Source: Allacma fusca (taxonomy: Eukaryota > Arthropoda > Collembola > Symphypleona > Sminthuridae). Taken from it: 64,000 nt of DNA. The notes under the pieces were generated by a model. It worked only from the letters and a program-made list of their open reading frames with translations. It was not told where the DNA came from and made no database searches. The position numbers and the translations under genes are program-made. The stretch's first letter is position 1. The number at the start of each line of letters is the position of its first letter. The DNA is taken from the NCBI GenBank assembly GCA_947179485.1, contig OX359247.1, forward strand, positions 30,790,801-30,854,800, read 5' to 3'. Below, in pieces: positions 23,851 to 44,826 of the stretch.

Positions 23851-24707
23851 ATATCGTCGGTGAAGAGGCAAAATGATCTAGGTGCATGATCGATTAGAAT
23901 CAAAATGATCTACTTGCAGTTTCACTAAAGGCAAAATGATCTACTTGCATTGAATTTTAAAAGCAAAATGATCTAGATGCAGCTTTTCCTAAAAGCAAAA
24001 TGATCTAGATACAAATTATAATAAAAACAATATAAGTAAACACATTCAAATGCCGGTGTACAAAAATGCGAGGTATTCAAAATCTTTTATATATGCATTT
24101 AATTCCCCAATGCCTCCATTTCTTTCTTTCAGTAACATTGAAAAAAAAAAGTTGTCAATTATGATTTAACATTTGAAAATGATTCCGAATGTTATGATAA
24201 TGGTGATGATCGTAGAATACGATTTGAAAAAACTCCACGTTGAGAATTATTAATAAAGGGAAAACCAATTCAATGTGCACACTAACACATGAGCTTACTG
24301 TGATTTTGATTCGTCTTTTAATTCGTCGATTTTTAAATAAATGAATGTTGCAGTTTTCGTAACTAAAAATGTATTAGATGCGATAAGTGAAATTAACTTT
24401 AGTTGCCGGAATGATCCTTAGTAATAGCAAACCCTTCAGAGAATATTAACCCACAACCCTAGGTCAATTACAGTCATGGTTAGCCCTTATAAGCCACGTG
24501 TCCTCCTTACAGATGCTAGTTTTCTCACAAAAAAAATTAGACCAGCACTTAGATCATTTTGCTTTTAAGGAAAATTGTATGTAGATCAGTTTGCTTTTAA
24601 AGAGGCTTGCACCCAGTTCATTTTGCCTTTAGGGAAAAAGTTATGTAGATCATTTTGATTCTAATCGATTATGCACCTAGATCATTTTGCCTCTTCACCG
24701 ACGATAT
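23851..24707. mobile_element. Foldback (long inverted repeat) element with iterated GCAAAATGATCTA motifs
   Basis: The left arm (23851 to about 24010) and the reverse complement of the right arm (about 24540-24707) begin identically, ATATCGTCGGTGAAGAGGCA, and stay alignable for about 150 bp. Each arm holds five spaced copies of [GT]CAAAATGATCTA. The second copy from the outside starts with T instead of G in both arms, so the arms are homologous motif by motif. The centre (24010-24540) has no long frame. This is the structure of a non-autonomous foldback transposon. A clear target-site duplication was not found; a TA or AT at the ends is possible. Confidence 0.75.
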
Positions 24708-39965: not shown

Positions 39966-41690
39966 TTTGAACCTAGTACATAAATACAACAATTAGGACT
40001 TTCCTTGCATCAATTCCGATGATATTCCATAACAATAACTTAACAATAACCTCAAAATCAATGTCAGCTATCGTCTAACATTGCACGTCTAAAGAGCACA
40101 AACACAGAAGGTAGGAAGATCTACTCAATTCTGACAAGCTGGTAGTAACAGAAGTAGCACATATGAGCACGATTTGTACTACCTGAACAAAAAAATTGAC
40201 ACCTAAATTTCCTATTTAACAATACTTATGATCACTGTTTCCATACATAAAATCCTTACAGCCAACGAAATATAATGTCCCTGGTGCATTGCCCACTGGA
40301 ATTCTCAAAGAATTTGATAATTTACTTGCGCAACCTCTGAATCACACTTTTGCGTCCCTATCAAAATTGTATCTAATTTATGGAAAGTGGTACATATAAA
40401 TATTGTACCAAAATTCAACATAACTACAATCAAACCTTACGAGATGCAACAACGGGTTTCATAGATGATGTTACTTTGCCTGAAGTAGTCATACAAGAAA
40501 CCATCCAATAAGATAAAGAAAAGAAAATGGAACTAAATCCTAAAAAGTGCATATACAAGTGACAATTGAATATTGATCCCATCCGTGGTAACCTTATTCA
40601 AATCTTGATCTAATTATTGGTAGTAAAATTATACCCAAATCCCAGGAAAGTAAATGACTAGGTGTTTATATACATAAATAACAGAGCTAAAGGGCTTGGA
40701 TTAAATCTTGGCTTAAACTTGAGCCTCTGTAATAACTTGGCTAAAGAATATCAGACACAAGATTTGATAAATCCCTAATCAGAACCTCCCGAATTAGATA
40801 CACACTCGAGTTCCAATTCAATACTTTAATGGTAGAACCAGAAAGTACAATACATTATTAGAAATCAAATTCAGGTGTGAGAGATCCTGTCAACTGTAGA
40901 TCTTCAATACCATATTTAATCCAGGAAATTAACAAACTAAAAAAATCTGAAATCGATTACTTGATTATGCAGAATTAACTACGGTTATTATGTGAAAGGT
41001 TTCAGTAAATTACCGATCTCCATTCAATATCATAGCTATCTTCAATACCTAATGCCTCTTGCCTCTTCTTTTATCCCGATTAATGGTGTTTGCGTTTTGC
41101 ATATGCCCACTTGACAGTGAATCATCAAATCTAATATAAGGGGAAAGGTACAAAAAGAGCTACAAATTTTGACCAGTGATTCCTTGGACCCCCAGGGATC
41201 AGGGCTTCGAACTATAGTTTTTCTAAACTAATAAAATTATCAATAAAACTCTCGTACAAAATTTCTTAAAATTATAGCCTTGACCTAACAATAAGATCTT
41301 AGTACTTCGTATCCCATTATATGCCAAATTCCAACACATTGACCAATTACAGATATGAACAGATGCATGTGCTGCTGCTGAACAGCACGCTCAATAATTC
41401 TAATTTCAAATACCCATACCAAGATATTTTTCAAACCTTTCCACAAACTCGAGGAACTGCAATTACGTACTAATTATTAAAATGAATTATTTAATACCTT
41501 TCACACAATTTAACAGGGAAATTAACTCAAGATGTCAAAGATTGTTCACACGTCCACGGGAATCCACGACGGCACGACTTTACCGAAAAGCCGAATTTTA
41601 AAACGTCCACCGCAGTCCTTGTATGTATAACACGTGGTAATTATCGCGGCAGTACGAACTCCGGCTTCATTTAGGTTTGCACGTAAATTT
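39966..41690. other. Intergenic upstream of eIF3k
   Basis: No gene or repeat recognised. It should contain the eIF3k promoter. The last eight bases (41683-41690, GTAAATTT) are the left target-site copy of the element that follows. Confidence 0.5.
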
Positions 41691-41697
41691 GGGCCTC

Positions 41698-41990
41698 ACT
41701 AAAACACTGAACTACTGAACTACTGAACCACTGAACTTTACCCTAAAACACTGAACTACTGAACTGCTGAACCCCAAATACTGAACTGCTGAACCCCAAA
41801 TACTGAACTGCTGAACCCCAACTACTGAACTGCTGAACCCCAAATACTGAACTGCTGAACCCCAACTACTGAACTGTTGAACCCCAACTACTGAACTGCT
41901 GAACCCCAAATACTGAACCCCCTAACTACTGAATCACTGACTGCTGACCTCCCCCAAAACACTGGCCAGTACTGACATGGTGACTGCTGA
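41698..41990 (-). repeat. Left tandem-repeat arm of the outer element
   Basis: About seven copies of a 22-bp unit (CTACTGAACTGCTGAACCCCAA and variants) plus related ACTGAACTACTGAAC words. It is the inverted counterpart of 44030-44413. The 65-codon open frame across it (about 41712-41909) only reads the repeat and is not a gene. Confidence 0.85.
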
Positions 41991-42118
41991 ACTCCCTAGA
42001 CATGCTTTTGTAAATTGGAGGTCTCATAAAATATATAGTACAAGTATATAACCAAGCACTGTATATGAACTGAACTCCACAAGTATGCAAGTAATACGTA
42101 CTCCTACTTGGGTGTACT

Positions 42119-43920
42119 TAGGGTATGTCGATTTGAAAATGTCCGGCATTTTGGGCAACTTGCCCGCCCAAAATGCCCTGGCATTTTGGGCATTTTCATT
42201 TCAGGGCGAGGGCGGTATAATAGGGCATATTGGGAAAGGGCATTTTGGGCATTTTCATCGAGGAAAAATTGAGCATTTTGGGCAGAATCGTGGAATATAA
42301 TCGTATAATCTATACAATTTGACAATTGATTTCAAAATTTCTTTGTACTTTTGGAGAAAAATCGTTCGAAATTCCCTTGAAAATTTTATTAGATTTGTCA
42401 TTATGTTGACGAAGTTAATTCAACCGGTGATGAAATACGTTAGGATACCATAAGTTATACTGAACATTACAATTTGTGAAACACCTGTACACGATACAGC
42501 TATACATTAAATTATTCTAGGAACTATTTTTCCAATCTGCAGACGATGTAAAATGAACTTCCACCATCCTGGGAATATTCACATACCCCTATGCATGCAT
42601 GTATATTACTGCGATCAGAAATGTCTTTTCGGTTAAAATTTGAACTCATTCGGTAATTGTTTTATACACCATAAATCTACAAACAACAATATTTGGGGGA
42701 CCTTTATGGAGGATGTAAATTGGTTTTTACTCGAGCCATTTTTGGCTGATCGTTGCAAACTGCAGACAATAGTGATGTAGAATAAACTGAGTATAAAATT
42801 CAGCTTCATCACCCATTAACATTTTGACTGATCAGTTACCATCAGATTTTTACTTTATGAGTTCGTACTTCAACAGAAAATGGTATTTCTGCCCACCCGT
42901 CAGTAACTCATATGCAAATTTATTTCATATTATTGTTTACATAGAAATTTATTTTCATAGGAGTGATAAACGATGTCACCTCATAGAGCTTCCAATGTGT
43001 TCAACATTTTTGTTCCGTAGAAAATTCCGTTCCGTTCCGAAACCTACAAATAATATTGTTCCCGGTTCCGTTCCGACTGTCGGGACATCGGAATATTTTA
43101 AATGAAATCGTTCGGAACAAAGAAGTAAATTTTTGTTTCCGTCACAGTTTGTGTTCCGTTCCGGATTATGCTGGTTTTTCTGTTCCGAACCCGTTCCGTT
43201 CCGAAGCATCCCGGGATTTTTTATTACATGTACATGAAATGCAATTTGCACTACCTGTAATATTTCCACAACAATATTTATGTTCAAGTTTGATATTTGA
43301 TTATAAATAATTCCTTTCTGTATTTTAAAATAGTAAGGACACTTCATTAACTGTACCGGTATCGGAACGGAACGGAACAGAACAATTCCGCTTTCCGATG
43401 ACATAAATTTTATGTGACAGTTTTCGTACCGATGCTGTGAACTGTCCCGGTCCCAATATCATCGGTACAAGTGCTCATGTTCCGGTTTTGTCCCGATTCA
43501 ATGACGGAACAAAAAGAATGTTCCGAAATTGTTCCGTTCCGTTTCCGAACACGGAACTTCGGGATTTCGGAAACCCGAAGGAAGCTCTATCACCTCATGT
43601 CAATGAAATTTAATTGATTTGGTAGTTTTTGCCATTATAATATATTAACGAACAAGCGAGTAACCAGGCATTCACATTTGTACCTTTTCCTTAGCTTCGC
43701 TTCCATGCATTCGGATGGATATTCTAAATATATGCTAGTAATCCAATTTTGGTGCCGTGAAAATGCTCAAAATGCCCAACTTGCCCCGCCCAAAATGCCC
43801 AAAATCAGGGCTTTTGTAAAACCTGCACACTTGCCCAACTTCGGGCAATTGGGCAGGCATTTTGGGCATTTTCAGCTGGGCGGGCAAATACTGTAGGGCA
43901 TTTTCAATCGACATACCCTA
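42119..43920. mobile_element. Inner inverted-repeat element (TAGGGTATGTCGA ends)
   Basis: The left end TAGGGTATGTCGATTTGAAA (42119) matches the reverse complement of the right end TAGGGTATGTCGATTGAAAA (ending 43920) apart from one inserted T. Both are followed inward by CATTTTGGGC/GCCCAAAATG words repeated in both orientations over about 170 bp. The near-match GTGTACTT (42112-42119) and GTGTGCTT (43923-43930) could be a target duplication, but the offsets are off by two bases. It may be an independent insertion or an inner layer of the outer element. Confidence 0.6.
42984..43589. mobile_element. hAT-type MITE, 606 bp, with perfect 8-bp target duplication
   Basis: The ends are exact inverted repeats, TAGAGCTTCC at 42984-42993 and GGAAGCTCTA at 43580-43589. 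They are flanked by identical 8-bp copies of TCACCTCA (42976-42983 and 43590-43597). Inside, GTTCCG/CGGAAC words recur dozens of times, mostly near both ends and in inverted order. An 8-bp duplication with TA-G ends is the signature of hAT transposons. No transposase is encoded, so it depends on an enzyme supplied elsewhere. The clean duplication suggests a fairly recent insertion. Confidence 0.9.
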
Positions 43921-44029
43921 GCGTGTGCTTCGATGAGAAAGTTATTTTGCAACACTGTGTAATCATATTTGTTGAGAAGAAATCGGTTGATTCAAATTTT
44001 GTATTCAAATTTCAGTCAGCAGGTCAGTG

Positions 44030-44413
44030 CAGGTCAGTGTTTTGGAGGAGATCAGTAGTTCAGAGTTTCAACAGTTCAGCAGTTGGGTTCAGTAGTTCAG
44101 TAGTTGGGGTTCAGCAGTTCAGTAGTTGGGGTTTAGCAGTTCAGTAGTTGGGGTTTAGCAGTTCAGTAGTTGGGGTTCAGCAGTTCAGTAGTTGGGGTTT
44201 AGCAGTTCAGTAGTTGGGGTTCAGCAGTTCAGTAGTTCAGTAGTTAGGGGGTTCAGTAGTTCAGTAGTTAGGGGGTTCAGTAGTTCAGTAGTTAGGGGGT
44301 TCAGTAGTTCAGTAGTTAGGGGGTTCAGTAGTTCAGTAGTTAGGGGGTTCAGTAGTTCAGTGTTTTAGGGTAAAGTTCAGTGGTTCAGTAGTTCAGTGTT
44401 TTAGTGAGACCCC
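44030..44413 (+). repeat. Right tandem-repeat arm of the outer element
   Basis: Two unit types: about seven copies of a 22-bp unit (GTTGGGGTTCAGCAGTTCAGTA), then about five copies of a 25-bp unit containing GTTCAGTAGTTAGGGGG. The arm ends CAGTGTTTTAGTGAGACCCC. The 25-bp units have no equal run in the left arm, so this arm has expanded on its own. Confidence 0.85.
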
Positions 44414-44826
44414 GTAAATTTTGTGTTTGTGTGTTCATGTGTAGGTGCTAAAGCCCCTGCAGTTTAAAACAATAATTAATTACTTCTCGTCTCTGCAATA
44501 GTAGTTGGATAATCCTTTAATTAATAATAAATTATTATATTAAAAACGTGAAGGCATAATCAGTTGAAATTGACTTCATGATTATGTATTGTAACTATAC
44601 CTAGTTTGTAATTTTTTTGTAAGGGCGACAGTTTATGCATGTGCTGAAATTGAAAGAGCTGAAAGTTACTTCTTGCTATACAGTATAATCGTGACTTATT
44701 GCCTTAACCAATGATTGATTAATTACATACATGTTTTTTCTGTTCCATCAAATACGTATTTTTCATAATTGCCGTTTAAATTGTATTGACATTTTGACCC
44801 TCCGATTCTGTCACTGGAATAGCAAA

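Follow-up and report, generated by a model that had tools for sequence, protein, structure and literature searches.

The 64,000-nt window analysed here, from the springtail Allacma fusca (contig OX359247.1), contains three transposons that are nested in a known order, each of which belongs to a general type already described. The outermost, el1, is probably a recently active, non-autonomous cut-and-paste foldback DNA transposon, and a Mutator-like (MULE) transposase acting in trans most likely mobilizes it.

The el1 element occupies positions 41691–44412 (2722 bp; no strand assigned), with the ends GGGCCTCACTAAAACACTGAAC and GTTCAGTGTTTTAGTGAGACCC, and its termini are inverted copies of GGG(C/T)CTCACTAAAACACTGAAC, as described in a first-pass annotation of the same DNA. 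It is flanked on the forward strand by the 9-bp target duplication CGTAAATTT (41682–41690 and 44413–44421). The first-pass annotation had correctly recognized these identical direct repeats but read them as a perfect 8-bp duplication and gave the structure as 41683–44421. The 8-bp reading was rejected because an additional C lengthens the match to exactly 9 bp in every copy and yields GGG..CCC ends in 16 of 17 copies (the exception, L011, starts with GAG). The left arm (41691–41986; about 300 bp) consists of a terminal module, a 22-bp tandem array (41757–41918), and an inner inverted segment; the right arm (44013–44412; about 400 bp) comprises an inner inverted segment, a 22-bp array (44067–44237), a 24-bp array (44227–44393), and a terminal module, with no strand assigned to either arm. 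The 22-bp arrays and the restriction of one unit run to the right arm agree with the earlier description, which had given the unit of that run as 25 bp; Tandem Repeats Finder assigns it 24 bp. A short core, ACTGAAC, is present in the el1 terminus and recurs about 35 times across both arms. The absence of a transposase, also claimed earlier, was borne out, as the longest stop-to-stop frame within el1 has 160 codons and none is of transposase size. A single 2.7-kb palindrome, as originally proposed, was rejected: the interior of el1 is made up of two nested inverted-repeat elements (el2 and el3), which the first-pass annotation had missed.

Comparison across the genome shows that el1 belongs to a family scattered over many places, with constant ends and a 9-bp target duplication. 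There are 39 exact matches to its 22-base terminus, compared with zero occurrences of the reversed control pattern; with up to two mismatches, the numbers are 117 and 5. A similarity search returned at least 63 matches (40 of 103 candidates scored), a figure that counts pieces of arms rather than elements. Exact 9-bp duplications flank all 18 two-ended copies that were read; those of 17 copies are all different from each other, and a longer relative (L056) supplies the 18th copy, which is the pattern that the initial proposal of a foldback transposon had predicted. Only one end was present at 4 of the 20 places examined. The family has the anatomy of a foldback element, with long inverted repeats of tandem units whose number differs between copies; the arms are shorter or less regular in several copies of subfamily B. 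Two copies at separate places and with different duplications (L012 and L014) are identical over 2037 bp, and a third (L015), likewise at a separate place and with a different duplication, differs from L012 by two substitutions. Judged from the identity of two differently placed copies over 2037 bp, the family therefore moved recently. An origin of the copies by segmental duplication or ectopic recombination is extremely improbable: some pairs of el1 matches do score equally, and, among the matches listed, the copy on the short unplaced contig C20 shares end variants with that at C8:17983855 and may be a haplotypic duplicate, but each of the 18 two-ended copies, including those that are internally identical, adjoins a 9-bp duplication of its own.

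The target duplications of MULEs range from 8 to 11 bp. That of el1 is 9 bp in all 18 copies read, the length typical of the superfamily (PMC3169594, PMC5225508). Together with tandem-unit arms like those of Tm1 and Muta1 and with the presence of a MULE-like frame and a MULE fragment between tandem arms in the same genome, this points to a MULE as the most likely source of the transposase. The frame (832 aa; L051) lies between tandem foldback arms of a different family from el1 and matches both Ulp1 (1.3e-8) and MULE (2.3e-5). Its MULE match, at 25.2 bits, falls short of the 27.6 bits that Pfam requires, a match to Transposase_mut is likewise below the cut-off, and no clear target duplication was seen. 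At a second place (L048), a MULE fragment is flanked by arms of 20-bp units. A springtail genome can accordingly be added to those with foldback elements of tandem arms, in one case enclosing a MULE/Ulp1 frame. These two places are the only ones with tandem foldback arms among the 10 of 49 MULE-domain places that were fetched, nine of which represent the nine weakest matches. At a strong place with an 898-aa frame (L055), long inverted repeats are absent from the 4.5 kb that were read; at another (L050), a single 65-bp inverted pair surrounds the MULE match and clear ends are lacking.

The first-pass annotation had suggested that the family might be named from an autonomous element sharing the el1 ends, but none came to light. 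None of the 49 MULE-domain places lies within 96 kb of any of the 39 exact el1 ends (the closest is 96,751 bp away), and the 18-base terminus with up to three mismatches is absent from the MULE places L046–L054; L048 and L049 each contain one match at four mismatches. The frames inside 17 el1 copies revealed no autonomous member. The relative L056 (4848 bp) has 12 frames of at least 70 codons; the 6 that were searched gave no transposase match and one weak match, below its cut-off, to an uncharacterized family. Among the extensions at five one-ended places, 6 of 15 frames longer than 110 codons were searched, of which three gave matches to retroelement families and three gave none. A copy with GGGYCTCACTAAAACACTG-type ends that encodes its own transposase was therefore not found among the 17 copies, the 49 MULE places, and the searched parts of L056 and of the five one-ended places. 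The lack of a MULE transposase linked to el1 ends would also be compatible with a foldback element from a different superfamily, one able to generate duplications of 7–9 bp (P/Galileo-like, Merlin, or hAT). Foldback arms arose in more than one superfamily (PMC3169594, PMC4079207), and Galileo has a P-element transposase (PMC3169594). Against this reading, which we consider unlikely, stand the constancy of the el1 duplication, which measures exactly 9 bp in every one of the 18 copies, while the el2 and el3 families in the window have exactly 8 bp, and the two places in the genome at which a MULE-like frame or fragment is enclosed by tandem foldback arms.

By description, the foldback elements FB of Drosophila and TU of sea urchins resemble el1 in having arms of short direct repeats. 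Arms of tandem units combined with duplications of 8–9 bp are already known in animal Mutator-like foldback elements such as Tm1 and Muta1, and the initial view that tandem-unit arms are uncommon is not borne out by the literature (PMC3169594, PMC5225508, PMC4079207, PMC10218199). Tm1 of Meloidogyne, a member of the Mutator/Foldback family with 13–15-bp tandem units and duplications of 8–10 bp (mostly 9 bp), shares with el1 the composite inverted repeats and the mostly non-autonomous copies, and one Tm1 locus also contains a nested inverted-repeat element; it differs in sequence and unit length, in its asymmetric 7-bp end motifs, and in that a transposase-encoding copy is known (PMC3169594). 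Among the 12 MULE families of Aedes aegypti that have long TIRs, 10 bear short subterminal tandem repeats; like el1, these families and Muta1 have derivatives with varying numbers of units, but their duplications are 8 or 9 bp, compared with 9 bp in the 18 el1 copies read, and Muta1 encodes its own transposase and moved in yeast (PMC5225508). Rehavkus-1_TC of Tribolium likewise carries short tandem arrays within inverted termini, but has a 164-bp satellite unit in a 9.5-kb element (PMC10218199). Tetris of Drosophila virilis is a foldback element whose inverted repeats contain tandem repeats; it has duplications of 8–10 bp and reportedly no autonomous copy that could be found. Unlike el1, it has units of about 220 bp and three structurally complete copies (PMC4079207).

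The middle layer of the nest, el2 (42119–43920; no strand assigned), has the ends TAGGGTATGTCGATT and AATCGACATACCCTA, measures about 1.19 kb without el3, and belongs to a large family with 8-bp duplications. A genome search for this family returned at least 62 matches (40 of 970 candidates scored; again pieces of arms rather than elements). Two ends were present at 11 of 12 fetched places, and all 11 two-ended places have exact 8-bp duplications. At the one-ended place L045, which was left out of the counts, an el2 relative lies about 1 kb from the end in opposite orientation. In the composite of el1 and el2, the el2 duplication is imperfect: comparison with copies that lack el2 identified the left remnant GGTGTACT (42111–42118, forward strand) and the right remnant GCGTGTGCT (43921–43929, forward strand), which differs from the left by one substitution and one extra base. 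The same el2 junction and sequence changes are common to all eight el1 copies of subfamily A, whereas the nine copies of subfamily B are without el2 ends and align across the el2 site; the composite has therefore moved as a unit. The alignments thus indicate that one el1 lineage took up el2 (TAGGG ends, 8-bp duplications) in the middle of the element and then spread as a composite.

Sister copies of el1 that are alike except in the number of arm units make the growth and shrinkage of foldback arms measurable per insertion, a question that is usually blurred by age. Five near-identical pairs differ by five substitutions and five indels in total, and all five indels fall within the arms; L010 and L011, a pair further apart, are separated by more substitutions (25) than indels (9). 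Among near-identical copies, gains and losses of arm units are thus roughly as frequent as base changes. During transposition, the ACTGAAC core may act as a transposase-binding site and the el1 ends would be joined via 9-bp staggered cuts; unit number could change by slippage, or by gap repair in which units are misaligned. It is conceivable, if rather unlikely, that transposition itself reshapes the arms, with units added, deleted, and swapped at each jump as gap repair changes template from one end to the other; the element would then keep rewriting its own putative transposase-binding array, and the foreign element with 8-bp duplications in its middle would be a durable cargo that multiplies along with it.

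The innermost element, el3 (42984–43589; no strand assigned), has the ends TAGAGCTTCC and GGAAGCTCTA and TTCCG-rich arms, and is flanked on the forward strand by the 8-bp duplication TCACCTCA (42976–42983 and 43590–43597). The copy L009, which is 99.9% alike, has the exact empty site, indicating that the composite in the window later received el3 (TAGAG ends, 8-bp duplication) inside el2. The nest therefore offers both an empty site for el3 and copies without el2. At the el3 site, L009 alone has the exact 9-base word; the word differs in five other subfamily-A copies, L010, L011, L012, L014, and L015, so that their empty sites rest on alignments. As single-stranded DNA, el3 (folded span 42984–43590, one base beyond its end) has a better fold than any of 20 shuffles. 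This result, and the potential of the inverted arms to pair, would suit a structure that matters as a source of hairpin RNA or small RNAs rather than as a mobile element; such a role is very improbable as the main explanation, as the features of a mobile element explain the anatomy unaided. The ends of hAT elements follow the consensus (C/T)A(A/G)NG, to which both the TAGGG ends of el2 and the TAGAG ends of el3 conform, and the 8-bp duplications at the 11 two-ended el2 places and in two two-ended el3 copies have the length expected of hAT elements; el2 and el3 may therefore be hAT-like, a label derived solely from duplication length and end consensus. The second of these el3 copies, with its 8-bp duplication, is located in L023, and a partial el3 match is present in L031.

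The outer element of the window, a non-autonomous foldback transposon, is real and mobile, ordinary in kind, and well resolved in its nesting history. It spans positions 41691-44412 and is flanked on each side by CGTAAATTT, an exact 9-bp duplication; the first-pass annotation had claimed a target duplication of 8 bp because it assigned a C beside CCC to the element. Both ends are present at 16 of the 20 fetched places of this family, and all 17 two-ended copies (the 16 places and the window) have exact 9-bp duplications, no two of them alike; a mismatched end pattern recovered an eighteenth such copy (L056). Only a single end was found at the other four places (L021, L023, L027, and L028), with no far end in 10-kb extensions, and a fifth one-ended place (C5:2964758) has none in the 5 kb read beyond it. 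The genome searched comprises 91 contigs with 392,743,791 bases in total. It has 39 occurrences of the exact 22-base end versus 0 of a reversed control, and with up to two mismatches allowed a 19-base end gives 117 matches versus 5 for the control; these 117 matches include the sister ends GGGTCTCCC.. and GGGTCTGAC... Unusual end variants are common to the copies at C20:19693-21125 and C8:17983855-17985203; the small contig C20 may be a haplotypic duplicate, and its copy was left out of the copy counts.

The family moved recently, since several copies at different places differ little from each other. L012 and L014 are indistinguishable over 2037 bp, and L012 differs from L015 by two substitutions and from L013 by a single 16-bp stretch; these four copies lie on three chromosomes and have different duplications. 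L016 and L017 differ by one 48-bp stretch in an arm, with no substitutions.

The two-ended copies fall into two groups. In all eight members of subfamily A (the window and L009-L015), a second element (el2; 42119-43920 in the window) with the ends TAGGGTATGTCGATT sits at one common junction with the same sequence changes; el2 ends were not found in any of the nine copies of subfamily B (L016-L020, L022, and L024-L026), all of which can be aligned across the site. The common junction in A and the absence from B suggest, most simply, a single entry of el2 into the outer element, followed by multiplication of the composite. Within the composite, the target duplication of el2 is worn (left GGTGTACT, right GCGTGTGCT). 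The el2 family is large (the best 40 of 970 candidates were scored in the genome search), and 11 of 12 fetched places are two-ended, each of the 11 with an exact 8-bp duplication. A third element (el3; 42984-43589) lies within el2 in the window copy only; its ends were not found in the 16 other two-ended copies searched. L009, which is 99.9% alike outside el3, preserves the exact empty site with a single TCACCTCA. Five other subfamily A copies lack el3 as judged from alignments, although a check of these five did not recover the exact word of the site. A second el3-like element, with its own 8-bp duplication, is present at L023. At L045 (4758-6752), an el2 relative in opposite orientation lies about 1 kb further in from a one-ended outer copy, perhaps an independent second nesting. 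Another one-ended copy, at L044 (1-10000), is apparently interrupted by other transposons; this place has frames for reverse transcriptase with GIY-YIG and for reverse transcriptase with endonuclease, as well as additional arrays of words resembling GTTCAG and GGTTCGG.

Read inward from the ends, the arms proceed in 8-base steps grouped as 22- and 24-bp units, whose order differs between the two ends of an element and among copies; read in this way, subfamily B has shorter or more irregular arms. The left arm contains the word ACTGAAC 13 times and the right arm has 22 inverted copies of it, against 6 occurrences in the rest of the 64-kb window; a related word, CTGCTGAA, shows less specificity, with 11 occurrences in the arms and 7 outside them. 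Six copy pairs were compared. Five of these are near-identical (window/L009 with el3 left out, L012/L013, L012/L014, L012/L015, and L016/L017), though not independent, because L012 is in three of them; together they hold 5 substitutions and 5 indels, every one of the indels lying in an arm. The more distant pair (L010/L011) has 25 substitutions versus 9 indels, at least 3 of them outside the outer arms. The units may turn over by slippage or misaligned repair.

The 17 two-ended copies contain no frame of transposase size, the longest having 175 codons (L016). A MULE-domain search of the genome gave 49 matches (all 63 candidates scored), the nearest of which lies 96,751 bp away from an exact outer end. 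Ten of the 49 places were read, including the nine weakest matches. At L051 (1534-6440), an 832-aa MULE-like frame with a C-terminal Ulp1-like protease domain (Peptidase_C48, 1.3e-8; below the cut-off, MULE, 2.3e-5, and Transposase_mut, 6.4e-4) sits between long foldback arms whose tandem units measure 27 to 60 bp. Fusions of this kind are known from plants. L048 has a MULE fragment with arms of 20-bp units on both sides; no tandem foldback arms surround the match at the other eight places read, although at one of them (L050) the match is flanked by one inverted pair of 65 bp. MULE-type frames thus occur between tandem foldback arms in Allacma fusca. The two places do not establish L051 as the mover of the outer family, whose membership in the MULE superfamily is likely but unproven.

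The kind of element is already known, because its architecture of tandem-unit inverted repeats, 8-10-bp duplications, and many non-autonomous copies is shared, in part or whole, by Tm1 (PMC3169594), Muta1 (PMC5225508), Tetris (PMC4079207), and Rehavkus (PMC10218199), as described in the available portions of these reports. The portion on Tm1 also describes one locus with a nested inverted-repeat element, like the nest found here (PMC3169594).

Seven of nine frames in the window (C10:30790801-30854800) have matches to cellular gene families in Pfam, among them UDP-glucosyltransferase, Fuseless, and TBP. The available part of the genome report gives six chromosomes (81.9, 75.61, 66.08, 58.81, 55.59, and 48.07 Mb), a total of 392.8 Mb on 95 scaffolds, and a heterozygous inversion of chromosome 3 from about 5 to 45 Mb (PMC10427803). 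With C10 taken as chromosome 3, the outer element (41682-44421 with its duplications, at about 30.83 Mb) lies within this inversion. The matches listed for C10 include sister-type ends close to 5.15 and 5.58 Mb, as well as a copy of el2 at 45.59 Mb; because the inversion breakpoints are known only approximately, these positions establish no link with the inversion. The foldback-like Galileo is described, in the portion of the report available, as a source of inversions in flies (PMC2775673). Elsewhere in the window, two arrays with units of 32 and 64 bp (23866-24030 and 24550-24692) are seemingly inverted counterparts (GCAAAATGATCTA / TAGATCATTTTGC) and perhaps represent another foldback element.
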